Assembly: GCA_018333515.1 (NCBI GenBank)
Contig: JAGXSZ010000040.1
Span: 1 to 64,000, forward strand
Length of the DNA stretch: 64,000 bases
From: Actinomycetota bacterium
Lineage (GTDB): Bacteria; Actinomycetota; Aquicultoria; Aquicultorales; Aquicultoraceae
Direction: 5' to 3'
Each line of letters begins with the position of its first letter. Positions within the stretch are counted from its first letter, which is position 1. Below, one piece after another: positions 26,235-60,679 of this stretch. The notes beneath the pieces are model-generated. The model saw nothing but the letters and a program-made list of their open reading frames with translations, made no database searches and was not told the DNA's origin. The position numbers and the translations under genes are program-made.

Positions 26235-26433
26235 CTCTTATCCAGAGAGGTGGAGGGACTGGCCCTTTGAAGCCTCGGCAACCTGGAAACAAGCGGGTAT
26301 ACCCAATCGTTTCTAAGGTGCCAATTCCGGCGGAATCTAAAGGTAGTATCTTTTGATTAAAAGGTTACTGAAAGATGAGAGAAGGTTTAACAAGACTATA
26401 AACCCTCGCGCTTTCAGGCCGAGGGTATTTTTA
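26235..26433 (+). promoter_or_regulatory. SAM-I (S-box) riboswitch with terminator, upstream of metK
   Basis: The aptamer runs 26235-26382. Its P1 arms CTCTTATC (26235-26242) and GATGAGAG (26374-26381) pair fully. The conserved core AGAGGTGGAGGGACTGGCCC and GAAGCCTCGGCAACC are intact. A terminator follows: ACCCTCG (26402-26408) with CGAGGGT (26420-26426), then a T run. Known action: bound SAM favours the terminator and shuts off SAM synthesis. Confidence 0.95.
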
Positions 26434-34160: not shown

Positions 34161-34177
34161 CATTAAAATTACATAGT

Positions 34178-34390
34178 ACCTTCGGGGCAGGGTGAAATTC
34201 CCGATCGGCGGTTAGAGCCCGCGAGCTGCTTGTGTTTAACGGCGAGTCATTCGTAAAATATCACAAAAAGCTGAGCCGGTGAGATTCCGGAGCCGACAGT
34301 TACAGTCTGGATGGGAGAAGGTTAAGAGTCAAGTATACGTATAGCGTATACTTGGATAATGCGCCCCGCTTTCTCCCGGGTGCATTTTTA
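34178..34390 (+). promoter_or_regulatory. FMN riboswitch (RFN) with terminator
   Basis: The aptamer covers 34178-34322 with P1 arms ACCTTC and GAAGGT. Conserved blocks GGGGCAGGGTGAAATTCCCG, CCGGTGAGATTCCGGAGCCG and GACAGTTACAGTCTGGATGG are intact. A hairpin follows at 34331-34353, then a terminator 34358-34386 (AATGCGCCC / GGGTGCATT) with Ts. CTTTCTCCC in its loop region can pair with GGGAGAAG of the aptamer 3' end, a likely antiterminator. FMN binding would stop ribD-ribE-ribBA-ribH. Confidence 0.94.
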
Positions 34391-41162: not shown

Positions 41163-41233
41163 TGGGGGATCGTCTAACGGTAGGACAACGGACTCTGGCT
41201 CCGTATGTGAGGGTTCGAATCCTTCTCCCCCAG
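41163..41233 (+). tRNA. tRNA-Gln (anticodon CTG)
   Basis: A full cloverleaf: acceptor TGGGGGA / TCCCCCA, D arm GTCT / GGAC, anticodon stem ACGGA / TCCGT with loop CTCTGGC (anticodon 41195-41197), T arm GAGGG / CCTTC with loop TTCGAAT. CCA is not encoded. It reads codon CAG. The 3' half doubles as the boundary of the adjacent mobile island. Confidence 0.95.
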
Positions 41234-41950
41234 CAAGTTTTCAAATTCCTCTAAATTAGATCCTGAAGCGAGTATGCTGAAGGGTTCTTTTACCTGGTAG
41301 CTGGCTATAAGACCGTTCTTCAAAAGCAGGTTCGAAGATGTTAAACTAAGAACCCTCTGCTTTTCTTCAATTGACCCATCACTGTATACCTGAACTGCTG
41401 AATTAGCGAATTTAAAGAAACCTTCCATCTGTTCGAAGATTCTTTCATCGTTTGCATTAGAGGGGCTTAATTGCCGTTGTAAAGAAGCTCGCTCATCCAG
41501 AAGCTCACTTCTTTTCTTCTCATAAAAATCAATCATGGTTTCATCGGTTTCCTTGATGCAAGCATCGATTAGGTTTTCGAGCTTCTTGCCGTTTTCGAGG
41601 AGCCGCCTGTTGATGCTCTGAATAATTGTTTTGTTGTCGCCTCGCTCTGCGTCCTTTTGCTCTCTTGTAGCCCGAAGTAGCAGCCCTAGTTCGGCATCGT
41701 CTATGCTGAAACCTTTGAGCACGCCGACAACTTGTTCATCGAGCCTATCTTCGCGCGCATACGGTTTTCTGCTCTCGCACTTCGGTTTTGCGCAATGGTA
41801 ATACGTATGACCCTTTTGAATCTCAGCGGTTACAGCATGCCCGCAAACCGCACAGGTTAAGAAGCCACGCAAATGAAACGAGTGCTTTTGTTCTTTGGGC
41901 TTCGACTTCTTGTTTAAGATCTCTTGAGCCTTATCGAAGACCTTCAAGAC
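41174..41950 (-). pseudogene. large serine recombinase, C-terminal remnant ending inside tRNA-Gln
   Basis: About 255 residues of a large serine recombinase remain: the end of the recombinase domain (VFDKAQEILNKKSK), the zinc ribbon (LTCAVCGHAVTAE, then YYHCAKPKC), and the long coiled coil. The N-terminal resolvase catalytic domain is gone; upstream sequence is instead an HUH Rep gene. The last residues (EKDSNPHIRSQSPLSYR) are encoded antisense to the tRNA, so the stop codon comes from the host gene. This is what an integrase next to its attachment site would look like after integration at the tRNA 3' end. It cannot act as a recombinase. Confidence 0.85.
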
Positions 41951-54331: not shown

Positions 54332-57178
54332 CTATTTCTTAGCGCCAAGAACCCCGACGACCATCTTGGCGGCCTCGGCTCGGGTGGCCGTGTTGCTTGG
54401 CCTAAAGGTGTTGTCGTTATAGCCGCCGACGATGTTGGCCTTAACGCATTTGGCTATATAATCATTAGCCCATGAGGTCGCGATATCGGATAGGGTGCTG
54501 GCGCCGGCGGGCAGGCCAAGAGTCTCGGACGCTATTTTGGCGATCTCAGCTCGGGTTATACTTTTACCGGGCTTAAAAGTGCCGTCTTCGTAGCCGGCGA
54601 TAACCTTCTTCGATTTGGCCGTCTCGATATATTTATACGCCCAATGGTCTTTCGGTACATCGGTAAAGGAAGCGCTCGAAGGGTTCTCTAAGGTCCAACC
54701 CATCGTGAGGCACATCATTTTGGCGAACTCACCGCGGGATACGTTGTGGTTCGGCCGGAAAGACCCGTCGACATAACCGGAGACGATTTTGTTTGTGGTC
54801 AGCTGTATAACGTGGTCTTTATACCAGGCCGTATCGGGCACATCGGCGAAGCCGGATTGATTCGCGGTTTTCTCTACGAAGACCTCGAATTCGCTCGACT
54901 TCGCGCTCTCTTTTGCGGTTTTGCCTACCCAAGTCACCGCATACACGTAAGTCTTGCCGATTTCAACGCTCTTATCTTGATACCGGGCTTCGAGTATCGT
55001 CGCCGTGTTTACTTTTGACAGCGCCGTTTCACCTTTTATTTTTCGATAGACGTTGTAGCCGGAGAGGCCGCTGTCGGCAACGGAGGTCCACGATATGTGA
55101 GCCAACCCCTTATTGCTCACTACTTTCAGGCCTTGCGGGGCGGTCGCGGTGGTAGTGTCGTTCTGCGTAGTGATATTAAACGAGTATGCGGCGGCAAGCG
55201 CATTGCCGGCGCTGTCTTTGACACCGCTCGCGGGTATGGTCACCGTATATTTCATACCTAACGCAAGGTCTTTCGCCGGGGTTAGCGTCAGTACTTTATC
55301 TTTGATATTCTTTGACAGAGAAATCGCCGTGCTGCTCGTATCTTTAACGGCTATCGTCTCGTAGGCGGTTCCGGCCAGTATGTTCTCGCTAAAGGTTATG
55401 GTTATCGTCTTTTCTTTCGCGACCTCGACCGCATTGTTCGCCGGGTCGGTAGAGCTTACCGTCGGGGGAGTGGTATCGTTTTGGGTCGTAAAGCTCAAGG
55501 CATATTGCGCGGCCAGGTTATTATTGGACATATCTTTGACCGCGTTGACCGGAATCGTAATCGTGTGGACGGTATTGCCGGCAAGGTCGCCTGCCGGGTC
55601 AAGGCTTAACGTCGCCCCTGAAACTGTTTTGGTTGCATCTACCGAAACGCCGGCGGCGGTCTTAAACGTAATGTTGTTATAGGCGCTGCCGGCCTGGATG
55701 TTCTCACTAAAGGTGATAACGACGGTTTTGTCTCTCGTAATGCTTAAGGCGCTATTGGCCGGGTCGGTAGAGCTTACCGTCGGGGGCGTCGTATCCGGCG
55801 CCGCCGCTACAGTGAAGCTGAGGGTGTGTTGCGCACCGAACGCGTTGTTCGCGGTATCTTTTACGGCGCCCGCCGGGATTATCGCCGTATAGGTTGTGCC
55901 GTAAGCGAGGTCGCCGGTCGGGTCGAGTGTGAGCACGCGCCCGTTAATAACCTTGGTCATCGTAACCTGGCTGCCGGCGGCATCCTTAAGGGTTATCAAG
56001 TCGTAAGCGGTGCTCGACTGCACGTTCTCATTGAAAGTGATTGCTATGGTCTTGTCTCTGGCTATCGCGGTCGCCCCGTTTGCGGGGTCGGCGGAGTTGA
56101 TTACCGGCGGAAGGCTGTCGGATGTCGTGGCGCTAAAAACGCCGCCGCCCCAGGTGCCTGCGAATATCGTATAGTCCGAGCCGTACGCCGGGGAAAACCT
56201 AACAGAGGGGATGCTGGTCGGTGCGAGGCCGGTGTTTATCTGCGTCCAGTTGGTGCCGCCATTGGTCGATATGTGCGCGCCGCCCCCATAGGTGCCGACA
56301 ACGGTGGTGCTGTCGTCGGCATAGTTGGGCGATGTGGCGAGCGAGAATATGTTGACGCCCAAAAGGCCGCTCTGCGTCCAGCTCGCGCCGCCGTTGATCG
56401 TTTTATATACGCCGCCGCCATCGCTCGCGCCCGCGAAGACGGTGCCGTCAACAGCGTAGTTGGGGGACACACCGAGTGAGCTTATGTTGATGTTGCCAAG
56501 ATCGTTGTTTACCCGAGCCCAACTCGCTCCGCCGTCCATAGACTTGTACACGCCGCCGCCATCGCTTGTGCCCGCGAAGACGGTGCCGTCGATAGTGTAG
56601 TTGGGGGATGTTTGAATCGCGCTAATATAATTGTGCGAAAACCTGGTGTTCATAGCGGTCCAGCTCGTCCCGGCATCCGTCGATTTATATACGCCGCCGT
56701 TTGTTCCGGCAAAGACCGTCCGGTCGGTCGCATAGTTATTGGATATAGCAAGAGCGCTGACACTTGTGCCTGCGAGCCCCACTTGAGTCCAACTCGTACC
56801 GCCATTGGTCGACTTGTAGATTCCCGCGTTGTTGGTGCCCGAAAACACCGTGCCGTCGGCGGCATAGCCGGGGGAGACGGCGAGCGATTGCGCGTGGTTG
56901 CCGGCCAATCCGCCCTGCGTCCAGCTCGTCCCGCCGTTGGTCGATTTGTATATGCCGTTATCCGTGCCGGCAAAGACCGTCTTAGATGTGGCGTAATCGG
57001 GCGATACGCCGAGAGAGTAGACGATAGCGCCGGAAGGCCCGTTCGTAACCCATTCGTTGACGCCCGCATATCCTGTTGCCGCGACGGCCGGCAATAACGC
57101 GGCTGCGATAAGCACAAGCGCGGCTATTCTATTTAGGGTGGGAATTTTACTCGTCCTGGTCGCCATGGTTGTTTGCAT
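54332..57178 (-). CDS. S-layer-homology surface protein with beta-propeller-like and Ig-like repeats
   Basis: A 948-residue exported protein. A signal peptide spans residues 1 to about 39. About eight YCF48/BNR-like repeats follow to residue about 355 (VFAGT..GGGVYKS..GGASW units). Then come three Ig-like (Big_5 type) domains near 358, 461 and 566 (DPANGATAIARDKTIAITF pattern), a fibronectin type III-like domain near 675, and three SLH motifs from about 773 (FADVPDTAWYKDHVIQL...). SLH motifs anchor proteins to cell-wall polymers, so this is a cell-surface protein, perhaps for adhesion or as S-layer component. Start ATG 57178 after GGAGAGAG. Confidence 0.92.
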   Translation of the reverse strand: MQTTMATRTSKIPTLNRIAALVLIAAALLPAVAATGYAGVNEWVTNGPSGAIVYSLGVSPDYATSKTVFAGTDNGIYKSTNGGTSWTQGGLAGNHAQSLAVSPGYAADGTVFSGTNNAGIYKSTNGGTSWTQVGLAGTSVSALAISNNYATDRTVFAGTNGGVYKSTDAGTSWTAMNTRFSHNYISAIQTSPNYTIDGTVFAGTSDGGGVYKSMDGGASWARVNNDLGNINISSLGVSPNYAVDGTVFAGASDGGGVYKTINGGASWTQSGLLGVNIFSLATSPNYADDSTTVVGTYGGGAHISTNGGTNWTQINTGLAPTSIPSVRFSPAYGSDYTIFAGTWGGGVFSATTSDSLPPVINSADPANGATAIARDKTIAITFNENVQSSTAYDLITLKDAAGSQVTMTKVINGRVLTLDPTGDLAYGTTYTAIIPAGAVKDTANNAFGAQHTLSFTVAAAPDTTPPTVSSTDPANSALSITRDKTVVITFSENIQAGSAYNNITFKTAAGVSVDATKTVSGATLSLDPAGDLAGNTVHTITIPVNAVKDMSNNNLAAQYALSFTTQNDTTPPTVSSTDPANNAVEVAKEKTITITFSENILAGTAYETIAVKDTSSTAISLSKNIKDKVLTLTPAKDLALGMKYTVTIPASGVKDSAGNALAAAYSFNITTQNDTTTATAPQGLKVVSNKGLAHISWTSVADSGLSGYNVYRKIKGETALSKVNTATILEARYQDKSVEIGKTYVYAVTWVGKTAKESAKSSEFEVFVEKTANQSGFADVPDTAWYKDHVIQLTTNKIVSGYVDGSFRPNHNVSRGEFAKMMCLTMGWTLENPSSASFTDVPKDHWAYKYIETAKSKKVIAGYEDGTFKPGKSITRAEIAKIASETLGLPAGASTLSDIATSWANDYIAKCVKANIVGGYNDNTFRPSNTATRAEAAKMVVGVLGAKK

Positions 57179-57523
57179 ACGCTCTCTCCACTTCGTACAA
57201 ATATTTCACGTTAATTCGATAAGCCCTCGCGGTCTCTCATGATATTTGAGTATATATATTAGGAGTTATCGGACGGCTTGGTTGTTGTTTGAACCTTTTA
57301 TAGACAGAAAGCCTGGTGGGCAAGGGATGAGCAAACCGGTATCGACAATAGCCTTTCCAATCACATCCATTTAAGTTAAAGATTCTCAAATATATTGTTT
57401 AGCGGTCGCTATAGCTATGCTAATATTGGGTCAAAGCTATAAAGAACCGAATATTTGTCCTTGCCCTTGCCCAAAAATTGCGTCATTCAAATTGTCGTCA
57501 CAGAAAGGGAGGCCGCCGTCTTG
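57179..57523. other. divergent intergenic region, surface protein / cyclase-PPR gene
   Basis: AT-rich in parts. A TTGTTT near 57394 with TAATAT about 20 bases on may serve the plus-strand gene. No RNA gene recognised. Confidence 0.4.
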
Positions 57524-60500
57524 ATGGAACCATTCAATCGACAACATCTCGTGTATTGCCTTTCCATCCAAATGTCAGAGCCCGCAACACCCGAAAGAGA
57601 AGCCGGCGAAGCGGTGCTGGCGAGACAAGATCGTCTCAATGTGATCCTCGCCGAGCATCTCAAACCCCACATTCACAACCTTCGACTTTCGGATATCTTT
57701 GTAAAATTCACCGGCAACGGTTTCATGCTCATGACCGACAGGTCCGAGCGCGTACGCGCGCTCAGTTGTCTAGGCGTGATTCTAGCCAATAATTTTAACG
57801 ATGAGGTGGCGCGGGCTTACGGGATCGCGCAAAATCGGCTCCCGGCGCTCCGTATCAGCCTCTTCTCCGGTCACGACCGTCGCATCGAAATGCCGGACGG
57901 TAAGCGGGAATGGGTCGGCCATAGTCTTCGCAAAGCAGCCGGCTTGGCGATGTTCCCACACACCGACAGAGTGCTCGTCGACGACTCGGTACTCAGCCTG
58001 GTTAGGGACGAATTCAAGATTGAAAGATTCGACGCCGCGCCGGTCATGGATGCGGGTTCAGATACCGAGGCCGCCGCACTATTGTCGATCCTGGGCGAAA
58101 TCGTCTTGGAGTCTGTCGTCGAGAGCGGCACTCCCGAGTGCTACATGTATACTCTTAACGCGCTCGGCAGGACGGAGGATGCCGGCTATGTCGCCCAGGC
58201 GGTCGCGAGCCGCCTCACTGGTGACGCCCGCGGCGGAGAAGCGGCGGTTGAAGCATCCGAACAAGGCTCGGCGCTGAAAGATGCTCAGGGTTGGGGTAGG
58301 TTGCTTTCGAGCCTGACGGATTATCCGACCGCCAACGCGTTTTTTCTCAAAGCAAAGGCCGCCGGCGTACAGCCGACGGCGGATATATATAACATACTTG
58401 TCGCGTTGGCGCCCGATTTCGGTACCGCCAAATCTCTCGTTGAGGAGATGGAGCGCGAGGGGATAGAGCCCGATGTTACCATTTACAATGCGCTCGTCGC
58501 TAAAGCACCGGACCATGAGACCGCCGTCGCGCTGCTCTCGTCGATGCGGGAAGCAGGGCTCGTACCGGGCGCCCCTATATATGATGCGATGATCGCCAAA
58601 TCCGATTACGCAAAGGCCAAATCTCTCGTTGAGGAGATGGAGCGCGAGGGGATAGAGCCGGATATTTCCACTTATGGGTTACTTATAGCGAAAGCACCCG
58701 ACTACGAGACGGCTAGGTATTGGCTGAGATCTCTCACTGAGGACGGGGGTCGGCTTAGCGCCCATATCTACGGAGCGCTCATCGCTAAGGCGCCCGATTT
58801 TGAGACGGGCAAGTTCTGGCTGGAGACGATGGAGCGAGACGGTTTGCAGCCGAATATCGCCGTCTTCAATAAACTAATACCCAAAGCTCCGGGCTATGAT
58901 ATTGTCCGCGCCCTGCTCGACTCGGTGCGGGCCGAGGGCATAAAGCTCAATATCGTCACATATAATATGCTGATATCTAAAGCCGTCGATTTCGATACCG
59001 CGAAATCTTGGCTCGACGCGATGGCGAGAGATAGCGTCAAACCGAATCTCGACACATATAACCGCCTGCTTAGTAAGAACATATCGTCTCAGCCTGCGGA
59101 GGAATTGCTGAAATGGTACTTATCGCAAGAGCATCACTCGGAGGAGCCTATCCAGACAGCGATGGCCACCTACCGGAAGTACGGGCGCGTCGACCGGTCG
59201 TTGCGCTTAGCTGTTGAATATCCGCATCTTCCGGTGGCCAAAAGGCTCATCCGGGAGATCATGGATGAGGTTTTCGCGTATCTTAACACGATCCGAGAGG
59301 AAGCCGTACCGCCTAGCGTTACCAGTTATAACACTATTATCTCGAAAGCACCGTATTTCGATACCGCAAAATCATGGCTGGATTCGATGCGCAAAAAGGG
59401 AATAAAACCCGATATCGACACGTATAATACCTTGATTAAGAAGGCCGCCGGTTTTGAAAGAGCGCAATCGCTTGTCGAGACGATGCGGGCTGACGGAGTC
59501 GAGCCGACTACCGATACATTCGGGACGCTCTTTGAAAAAGACCTCTCCACGGTTTCGGCCGATGAATTGATCCTATGGTACCGGGCGCAAGAGAGCCTTG
59601 CGGAAGAGCCGATAGAGACGGCTATCGTCTCTTTCAAACGGATTGGCCGTGTCGACCAAGCCTTGCGTCTGGCGCTGGATTACCCGCGTCTGGCGGCGGC
59701 TAAGAGACTTATCCGTGAGTATATGGCCGAGGTGCTTTCATATCTGGGGACGATTCGCCGTGAAGGCGTCAAACCCAACATCGTGACCTACACCTCGCTC
59801 ATCTCGAAAGCACCGTATTACGATATCGCGGTCGCGTGGTTGGAGACGATGCGCGCCAAGGGCGTCAAACCGAATGCCGTGACGTATAACACACTCATCT
59901 TCAAGGCGCCCGATTTTGAGACGGCCCAGGCCCTCCTCGACGAGATGCGTTCCGAGGCTATTGTCCCAAATGTTATAACATACAGTACGCTCATTTCGAA
60001 AACGGAAGAATACGAATCGGCCGCCGCCCTATTCGCGAGGATGGAGCAAGAAGAGGTTCAACCCAATACAATTACCTATAATGCGTTGATGCTCAAGTCT
60101 CCCGATTATGAAGTCGCTCGCTCTTGGCTCGAAAAGATGAAGACGGAGCATTCGAAGCCGGACGTGATTACCTTCAATACGCTGATATATAAGGCGCCCG
60201 ATTTTGAGACGGCTGAAACCAAGTTCAGGGAGATGGGAAAAGCGGGAATACAACCGAATATCGTCACGTATAACCGCTTATTCAGCAAGGACCTCTCGGC
60301 GAAACCGGCTGAAGAAATCATCGCTTGGTACTTGGAGCAACCGTACCACCCGGACGAACCATTGCAAGCGGCGATATCCGCTTATCGAAAGATGGGAAGA
60401 GTCGATCAGGCATTGCGCCTGACCCTCGACTATCCCCATCTTCAGGTCGCTCGCAAGTTGATGAGGGATCACGCCGTCGAAGCGACAGCCTATTTTGAAG

Positions 60501-60679
60501 ACCTGCTCGCACGGAACCCTGAGGACTCGAACGCCGCATATGCGCTGGGTCTGGTATTGATAGAGAGCGGCAACGCGCAAGCGGCGAAGCCGCATTTGTT
60601 GAGGGCCATCACTTGCGCCAAGTCCGACTCCCAAAGGAAAGCCATAGAATCGCTTGTCGGAGGACTTTCCCGGGGATAA
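57524..60679 (+). CDS. degenerate class III cyclase-like domain fused to a pentatricopeptide-type (PPR) repeat array
   Basis: A 1051-residue soluble protein. Residues about 1-190 resemble a class III nucleotide cyclase domain (HLVYCLSIQMSEP, FVKFTGNGFMLMTDR, ALRISLFSGHDRRIE, GHSLRKAAGLA, RVLVDDSVL), but both metal aspartates appear lost (Ser in YCLS; GNG for GDG). From about 255 a solenoid of roughly 18 repeats begins, of the form TYNTLIxKAPDFETAxxWLEEM plus R.xGVKPN. The period is 32 residues, three fewer than canonical PPR. Three 85-residue modules (near 510, 663, 913; SKDLS..PAEELIxWY...GRVDQALRLxLDYPHL) split the array. A TPR-like cap ends it. ATG 57524 follows GGGAGG. PPR proteins are rare in bacteria; RNA binding is inferred. 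Confidence 0.85.
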   Translation: MEPFNRQHLVYCLSIQMSEPATPEREAGEAVLARQDRLNVILAEHLKPHIHNLRLSDIFVKFTGNGFMLMTDRSERVRALSCLGVILANNFNDEVARAYGIAQNRLPALRISLFSGHDRRIEMPDGKREWVGHSLRKAAGLAMFPHTDRVLVDDSVLSLVRDEFKIERFDAAPVMDAGSDTEAAALLSILGEIVLESVVESGTPECYMYTLNALGRTEDAGYVAQAVASRLTGDARGGEAAVEASEQGSALKDAQGWGRLLSSLTDYPTANAFFLKAKAAGVQPTADIYNILVALAPDFGTAKSLVEEMEREGIEPDVTIYNALVAKAPDHETAVALLSSMREAGLVPGAPIYDAMIAKSDYAKAKSLVEEMEREGIEPDISTYGLLIAKAPDYETARYWLRSLTEDGGRLSAHIYGALIAKAPDFETGKFWLETMERDGLQPNIAVFNKLIPKAPGYDIVRALLDSVRAEGIKLNIVTYNMLISKAVDFDTAKSWLDAMARDSVKPNLDTYNRLLSKNISSQPAEELLKWYLSQEHHSEEPIQTAMATYRKYGRVDRSLRLAVEYPHLPVAKRLIREIMDEVFAYLNTIREEAVPPSVTSYNTIISKAPYFDTAKSWLDSMRKKGIKPDIDTYNTLIKKAAGFERAQSLVETMRADGVEPTTDTFGTLFEKDLSTVSADELILWYRAQESLAEEPIETAIVSFKRIGRVDQALRLALDYPRLAAAKRLIREYMAEVLSYLGTIRREGVKPNIVTYTSLISKAPYYDIAVAWLETMRAKGVKPNAVTYNTLIFKAPDFETAQALLDEMRSEAIVPNVITYSTLISKTEEYESAAALFARMEQEEVQPNTITYNALMLKSPDYEVARSWLEKMKTEHSKPDVITFNTLIYKAPDFETAETKFREMGKAGIQPNIVTYNRLFSKDLSAKPAEEIIAWYLEQPYHPDEPLQAAISAYRKMGRVDQALRLTLDYPHLQVARKLMRDHAVEATAYFEDLLARNPEDSNAAYALGLVLIESGNAQAAKPHLLRAITCAKSDSQRKAIESLVGGLSRG

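Follow-up and report, generated by a model that had tools for sequence, protein, structure and literature searches.

Each repeat of a pentatricopeptide repeat (PPR) protein recognises a single base by means of residues 5 and 35, Val2 and Lys13 make further contacts, and a Lys13-to-Ala change abolished RNA binding (PMC4837458). The PPR motif has been called exclusively eukaryotic (PMC4029402), and the PPR proteins counted in bacteria in 2010 numbered 12 plus 2, from Legionella, Ralstonia and Rhodobacter, host-associated or phototrophic species (PMC2824747). In the protist PPR-TGM proteins a PPR tract is combined with a bacterial-type domain (PMC4029402), and adenylate cyclase activity has been ascribed to a PPR protein of Arabidopsis, AtPPR-AC (At1g62590) (PMC6022867). 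We found no earlier report of a PPR-cyclase fusion, or of a prokaryotic PPR code, in the open-access literature. As its cyclase centre, AtPPR-AC reportedly has a short motif within the plant PPR protein that was identified by a pattern search and, to our knowledge, it has no class III domain.

Here we describe a gene of a groundwater bacterium whose nearest named genomes are those of Candidatus Aquicultor (Actinomycetota). It lies in a stretch of 64,000 nucleotides (positions 1 to 64,000 of contig JAGXSZ010000040.1, GenBank assembly GCA_018333515.1), referred to below as the window, and its product, the window protein, joins PPR arrays to an N-terminal domain modelled with a class III cyclase fold.

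The gene, its setting and its distribution

The gene and the features around it are as follows.

54332-57178, - strand: divergent neighbour, surface-type protein of 948 aa with three Big_5 domains, three SLH domains and sortilin/BNR-like repeats
57404..57432, + strand: promoter-like block with TATGCTAATATT (extended -10-like), conserved in part across five Aquicultoraceae genomes
57504..57512, + strand: Shine-Dalgarno-like AAAGGGAGG, 11 nt upstream of the ATG; site purine-rich in 5 of 5 aligned genomes
57524..60679, + strand: coding sequence of the PPR/pseudo-cyclase protein of 1051 aa; single ORF, start fixed by genome comparison

The open reading frame proposed in the initial annotation was borne out. 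We take ATG 57524 to be the true start because a TAG codon directly precedes the ATG in sister genomes, the start itself (GATGGAA) is kept in five of five aligned genomes, and the Shine-Dalgarno-like sequence lies upstream; the stop codon ahead of the ATG in the sister genomes also rules out TTG 57455. The promoter-like block occurs once in the window, the genomes that conserve it span at least two genera, and it may function as a promoter. An Rfam search gave no credible match for a riboswitch upstream of the PPR gene. Elsewhere in the window there are an FMN riboswitch (34174-34326), a SAM riboswitch (26235-26381) and a tRNA-Gln(CTG) (41163-41234). The PPR gene, which is the sole locus with PPR matches in its genome, is flanked by the divergent S-layer-type protein gene and a CZB chemoreceptor gene.

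Homologues of the window protein showed 45-88% identity, and the fusion is present in 8 of the 11 genomes of the window's family, the Aquicultoraceae, its own genome included. A search of Actinomycetota genomes gave matches in 7 of 297 (a wide sample), all seven of them Aquicultoraceae, and the protein family was found to extend beyond the actinobacteria. Matches were present in 9 of 251 genomes of the Armatimonadota (the phylum of a Fimbriimonadaceae member), in 2 of 393 of the Dehalococcoidia/Chloroflexi (the class of a Dehalococcoidia member) and in 3 of 295 in the archaeal phylum of Candidatus Argoarchaeum, and two Bacteroidota genomes have the same architecture. The Argoarchaeum copy is on a 219-kb contig, and a second archaeal pair of loci has shared synteny. 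Several matches sit in MAGs and on short contigs, so that individual assignments may be mistaken. So scattered a distribution suggests that a stand-alone gene was passed on horizontally.

This distribution bears on the possibility that the gene is a recent eukaryotic acquisition or an assembly contamination. The literature treats PPR proteins as mainly eukaryotic (PMC4029402, PMC2824747), and a plant-type PPR does occur on a plasmid record elsewhere: Rahnella aquatilis plasmid pMEM40-2 (CP036489.1; L097, 2047-4257) has an ORF with plant-type 35-residue PPRs that is probably plant contamination. However, of 10 further genomes of the family, 7 had a homologue of the window protein, in several cases on a contig where the neighbouring genes are ordinary bacterial ones, and both an upstream region and a Shine-Dalgarno-like site are conserved. 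The repeat period is 32, unlike the plant-type 35, and the same architecture occurs in archaea and in other phyla. Together, these observations effectively refute a eukaryotic origin or contamination.

Other origins and roles were also considered. A mobile-element or phage origin was rejected, as no relative was found among viral contigs and phages and the lone plasmid match is the plant-type PPR described above. Comparison of the neighbours all-against-all at 22 loci identified no gene family consistently common to distant members, and an operon partner or effector was rejected on this basis. A role as a defence gene was set aside, since PADLOC gave no match to the window protein and its lone match to a relative (L030) falls within the repeats of that protein. 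Defence-type genes come after the PPR gene in two Aquicultoraceae genomes (L027, 8517-10244; L028, 2941-5919): one has DarT-DarG, the other a gene for a type III restriction-like protein.

The PPR arrays and their predicted base-reading positions

Pfam matched the window protein with PPR_3 (4e-73) and PPR_2 (1e-70), the curated PPR profiles scored 241.9 bits for PF13812 (cut-off 25) and 233.7 bits for PF13041 (cut-off 30), and designed PPR proteins were its top PDB matches (E 2.5e-79). In the AF2 model of the full-length protein (pLDDT 84.4), helices A and B of about 10 and 13 residues alternate with a period of 32, the alpha-alpha repeats form a PPR superhelix, and Foldseek searches with the model ranked the PPR10, dPPR and cPPR structures first. 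Based on profiles and model, it is close to certain that the window protein contains a PPR solenoid. The initial annotation had favoured PPR over a plain TPR/SEL1 solenoid, and the PPR models and Foldseek agreed with it; the TPR/SEL1 candidate was rejected, as TPR models match the C-terminal end only. The regions downstream of the N-terminal domain are listed below.

58133..58282, + strand: helical linker, aa 204-253; low confidence at 236-252 (AF2)
58283..59047, + strand: PPR array 1, aa 254-508; 8 repeats of 32 residues (one of 31), from profile and model
59048..59221, + strand: capping module 1, aa 509-566; three copies in the window protein
59222..59509, + strand: PPR array 2, aa 567-662; first repeat degenerate, from the repeat profile
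59510..59683, + strand: capping module 2, aa 663-720; same basis as capping module 1
59684..60259, + strand: PPR array 3, aa 721-912; repeats 753-912 with all four RNA-contact positions
60260..60517, + strand: capping module 3, aa 913-998; same basis as capping module 1
60518..60676, + strand: TPR-like C-terminal end, aa 999-1051; weak Pfam TPR matches (1004-1067 in the translation of the longer ORF, whose numbering is 23 above that of the ATG-start protein) and helices in the model

About 18 tandem repeats had been counted initially. The array and its 32-residue period stood, and the count was revised to 20, degenerate repeats included, in three blocks with capping modules: by a family-derived profile there are 19 ungapped 32-residue repeats and one 31-residue repeat between them. 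Well-formed repeats scored about 55-80 bits and degenerate ones 25-50, compared to a maximum of 13 in 200 shuffles. In alignments with 35-residue PPRs, three residues are absent after TYNTLI, in helix A, and the period of 32 is thus explained by a helix A that is three residues short.

Each of the three PPR blocks ends in a module of the form SKxLS..AEE...WY....EEPIQ.A...YRK.GR.D.ALRL...YPHL..A.KLIRE. Relatives in other phyla have a single such module, closing a single array, so the window protein, with three, looks like a threefold expansion. The sister genome G001 has two repeats fewer, in frame, possibly through assembly collapse of near-identical repeats.

In the 32-residue numbering the code positions are 5 and 32, Val2 corresponds to position 2, and Lys13 corresponds to Lys10. 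Base-code residues (N/S/T with N/D) are present, most clearly in array 3 and in the arrays of relatives. Four arrays of near-identical repeats (L068, L030, L029 and L069) were used to compute mean rates of difference at each of the 32 positions; positions 32 and 5 ranked highest, and the letters at positions 5 and 32 were limited to N/S/T and N/D. The chance of two named positions both ranking top among 32 is 1 in 496. One of the four arrays, L069, belongs to a different PPR protein that has no cyclase fusion, and positions 32 and 5 lead without it too. The array of L068 has ten near-identical repeats with the codes SD ND NN SN NN ND SD SN NN SD. When orthologous repeats from five Aquicultoraceae genomes were compared, position 5 came 2nd and position 32 came 4th of the 32 for repeat-specific conservation; position 10 was uniformly conserved, being Lys in about 85% of comparisons. 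Lys10, the phosphate-contact equivalent, is present in 16 of the 20 window repeats.

Position 2 is V or I in every repeat at about 753-912, and in arrays 1 and 2 it is mostly not hydrophobic, so that these two arrays may not read RNA. The codes of repeats 753-912 in array 3 are TN NN SN ND NN in the window protein and TN/SN, NN/NT/NS, SN/GN, ND and NN among orthologues, the changes being mostly synonymous. By the published code, the bases predicted for these repeats are A, C/U, A, U and C/U (PMC4837458). Predicted target motifs are too short or degenerate for genome-wide significance, and that of L068 had no exact match within L068's own 3.3-kb contig. For L068 (877-3153, genome G1310), the code predicts YGUYAYUGAYG. 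With NN read as C this becomes CGUCACUGACG, whose two arms (CGUCA / C / UGACG) form an inverted repeat that possibly arose by chance.

The arrays of the window protein might instead act as protein-binding scaffolds similar to TPR arrays, in which case the likeness to RNA-binding PPRs would be one of fold only. The lack of a hydrophobic position 2 in most repeats of arrays 1 and 2 and the TPR-like C-terminal end are in keeping with such a scaffold. However, changes gather at the code positions and involve code letters only, positions 5 and 32 are conserved repeat-specifically and Lys10 uniformly, and passing both of these code-position tests is not expected of a protein-binding scaffold, an explanation that we regard as improbable. 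For RNA binding there is also a point on the other side, as the repeat is three residues below the canonical PPR and has no RNA-binding precedent in solved structures. We consider it probable that the window protein binds single-stranded RNA via a PPR-like code. RNA reading, as first proposed, is thus backed by positions 5 and 32 and Lys10, evidence that derives partly from the arrays of relatives.

Short repeats were also observed in two further Bacteroidota proteins. In L069 (535-2619, genome G1398), an N-terminal region that contains a P-loop precedes 32-residue PPRs of a different deletion type (TLIHLCKDYNLA), with the codes TN SN TD TD ND ND. L070 (1435-2262, genome G1377), of about 276 aa, is a PPR protein that stands alone; it matches PPR_2/PPR_3 and has repeats of seemingly 32 residues. 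Short PPRs may be widespread among prokaryotes and linked to domains of several kinds.

The N-terminal domain in the window protein and its relatives

57524..58123, + strand: class III cyclase-homology domain, aa 1-200; metal positions Q and N; from AF2, Foldseek and the residue table

The AF2 model of residues 1-205 had a pLDDT of 84.5 and a pTM of 0.84, and its top 50 Foldseek matches were all class III cyclases (E from 2.6e-8), in agreement with the cyclase-like N-terminus of the initial annotation. Pfam Guanylate_cyc (PF00211) matched 0 of 19 family members, and the N-terminus of the window protein had no Pfam match of any kind. The family profile gave a weak match, in register, to rhodopsin guanylyl cyclase (VKTIGDAYL with KFTGDGWL; E 0.002). 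Based on this register and on knowledge of Rv1625c and RhGC, we assigned the columns that we take to be the purine-pocket and transition-state positions.

In the window protein the two metal aspartates are replaced by Q and N, the transition-state Asn by R and the transition-state Arg by G, and in all likelihood its N-domain is not an active cyclase. Loss of the metal aspartates, as suspected initially, holds for the window protein; it does not hold as a family trait, being limited to the Aquicultoraceae. At least one of the two is lost in 6 of 6 Aquicultoraceae sequences, in differing combinations (S/D, S/D, D/N and Q/N in L013, L014, L016 and the window protein). Both metal Asp, the adenine-type pocket Lys/Asp and the transition-state Arg are intact in all 13 aligned members outside the family, and the diverged Bacteroidota member L068, read by eye, also keeps these residues, so that both metal Asp are present in 14 of 14. 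The Aquicultoraceae form one clade with support of 99/95 and, given the 14 intact members, the dead cyclase is most simply a derived state in this unrooted tree. Such varied losses within one family suggest relaxed selection on catalysis after the array expansion.

Outside the Aquicultoraceae, every member has Arg in place of the transition-state Asn, and cyclase activity of the relatives is consequently not to be taken for granted; we judge that they are active to be slightly less probable than that they are not. A reading that overlaps the one we prefer, with the enzyme rather than RNA handling at its centre, is that the family consists of RNA sensors: the array would recognise a specific RNA, own or foreign, and switch the class III cyclase, the window copy having decayed or been repurposed. 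The residues intact in the 13 aligned members favour it, three intact relatives are from genomes with several other cyclases and five, among those checked, are from genomes with cNMP-binding domains. It is weakened by the Arg throughout the relatives, by the lack of a detected cNMP-binding domain in the Argoarchaeum genome, by the absence of a shared neighbour as possible effector at the 22 loci and by the lack of a PADLOC match for the window protein. No Pfam-detectable cyclase was found in the window's genome, G010, G101 or the Argoarchaeum genome, and missing cyclases or cNMP domains are weak evidence since most such genomes are incomplete. We consider the RNA-sensor reading less likely than not.

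The pocket Lys is invariant even in the Aquicultoraceae, and D or E occupies the second pocket position. These residues, and a cyclase fold retained at good model confidence, would suit a ligand-switched RNA binder, in which the pseudo-cyclase pocket binds a nucleotide and opens or closes the RNA-binding array. However, the full-length model (pTM 0.53, with residues 236-252 below a pLDDT of 50) does not fix the placement of the domains, and we think such a switch unlikely.

Proposed role and comparison with known systems

The explanation that we prefer, and consider reasonably probable, is that the window protein is a sequence-specific single-stranded RNA binder with a pseudo-cyclase module, from a family of possibly RNA-gated cyclases. 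It would be a cytosolic protein whose 32-residue repeats, chiefly those of array 3 (753-912, predicted A-Y-A-U-Y), each contact one base of a specific single-stranded RNA via residues 5 and 32, while the conserved Lys at position 10 would contact the RNA backbone. Class III cyclases dimerise, and the catalytically dead N-domain would most likely serve for dimerisation or as a nucleotide pocket, regulating or assembling the RNA-binding arm. The family from which it would descend retains the metal and purine-pocket residues of a nucleotide cyclase in this domain, and RNA held by the array would probably control cyclase activity or dimerisation in that family. In the window lineage catalysis would have been lost and the pocket Lys is kept, which fits a structural or ligand-sensing role.

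Sequence or modelling shows the PPR solenoid, the cyclase fold, the lost residues, the pattern at the code positions and the distribution. We infer RNA binding, the RNA target, catalysis in the relatives and regulatory coupling, and for a coupling between the cyclase and PPR halves the case seems evenly balanced. More speculatively, there may be a prokaryotic family of RNA-programmed cyclases, in which a 32-residue array switches a fused class III cyclase. The window protein would represent a derived branch of it in which the RNA reader was possibly retained and the enzyme became a structural or sensing module.

These proteins point to a native PPR family of prokaryotes, both bacterial and archaeal, that has a distinct repeat length and near-identical repeats varying mainly at the base-reading residues, in contrast to the treatment of PPR proteins as essentially eukaryotic organelle factors (PMC4029402). 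The prokaryotic history of modular RNA recognition becomes a testable question, and the 32-residue array is a compact scaffold for RNA-binder design. Relatives with intact catalytic residues are candidates for direct RNA-to-cyclic-nucleotide signalling, and RNA-controlled nucleotide cyclases may have evolved in cells.

Of the proteins described in the introduction, the bacterial PPRs of the 2010 count are set apart from the window protein by description only, no cyclase fusion being described for them (PMC2824747). The PPR-TGM proteins are eukaryotic with a C-terminal tRNA methyltransferase, whereas the window protein is prokaryotic with an N-terminal cyclase fold. In the S motif of PLS-type PPRs, which has 31-32 residues, the gap is at the C-terminal end of the repeat. 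The residues missing from the window repeat are in helix A.

With class III cyclases (RhGC, Ma1120 and CyaB), residues 1-205 of the window protein have the fold and the VKTIGDAYL / KFTGDGWL motif register in common. Unlike them, it has no metal Asp pair, no transition-state Arg and no PF00211 match, its C-terminal partner is a PPR array, and Asn is replaced by Arg across the family outside the Aquicultoraceae. With P-type PPRs (maize PPR10 and dPPR/cPPR) it shares the Pfam models, two-helix repeats, code residues, phosphate-contact Lys and superhelix. By contrast to their 35-residue repeat, its repeat has 32 residues with a shortened helix A, and it is prokaryotic, with three capped blocks and an N-terminal cyclase fold. 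The window protein is thus a short-repeat variant of the PPR superfamily with a cyclase-homology domain, neither a canonical P-type PPR protein nor a class III cyclase.
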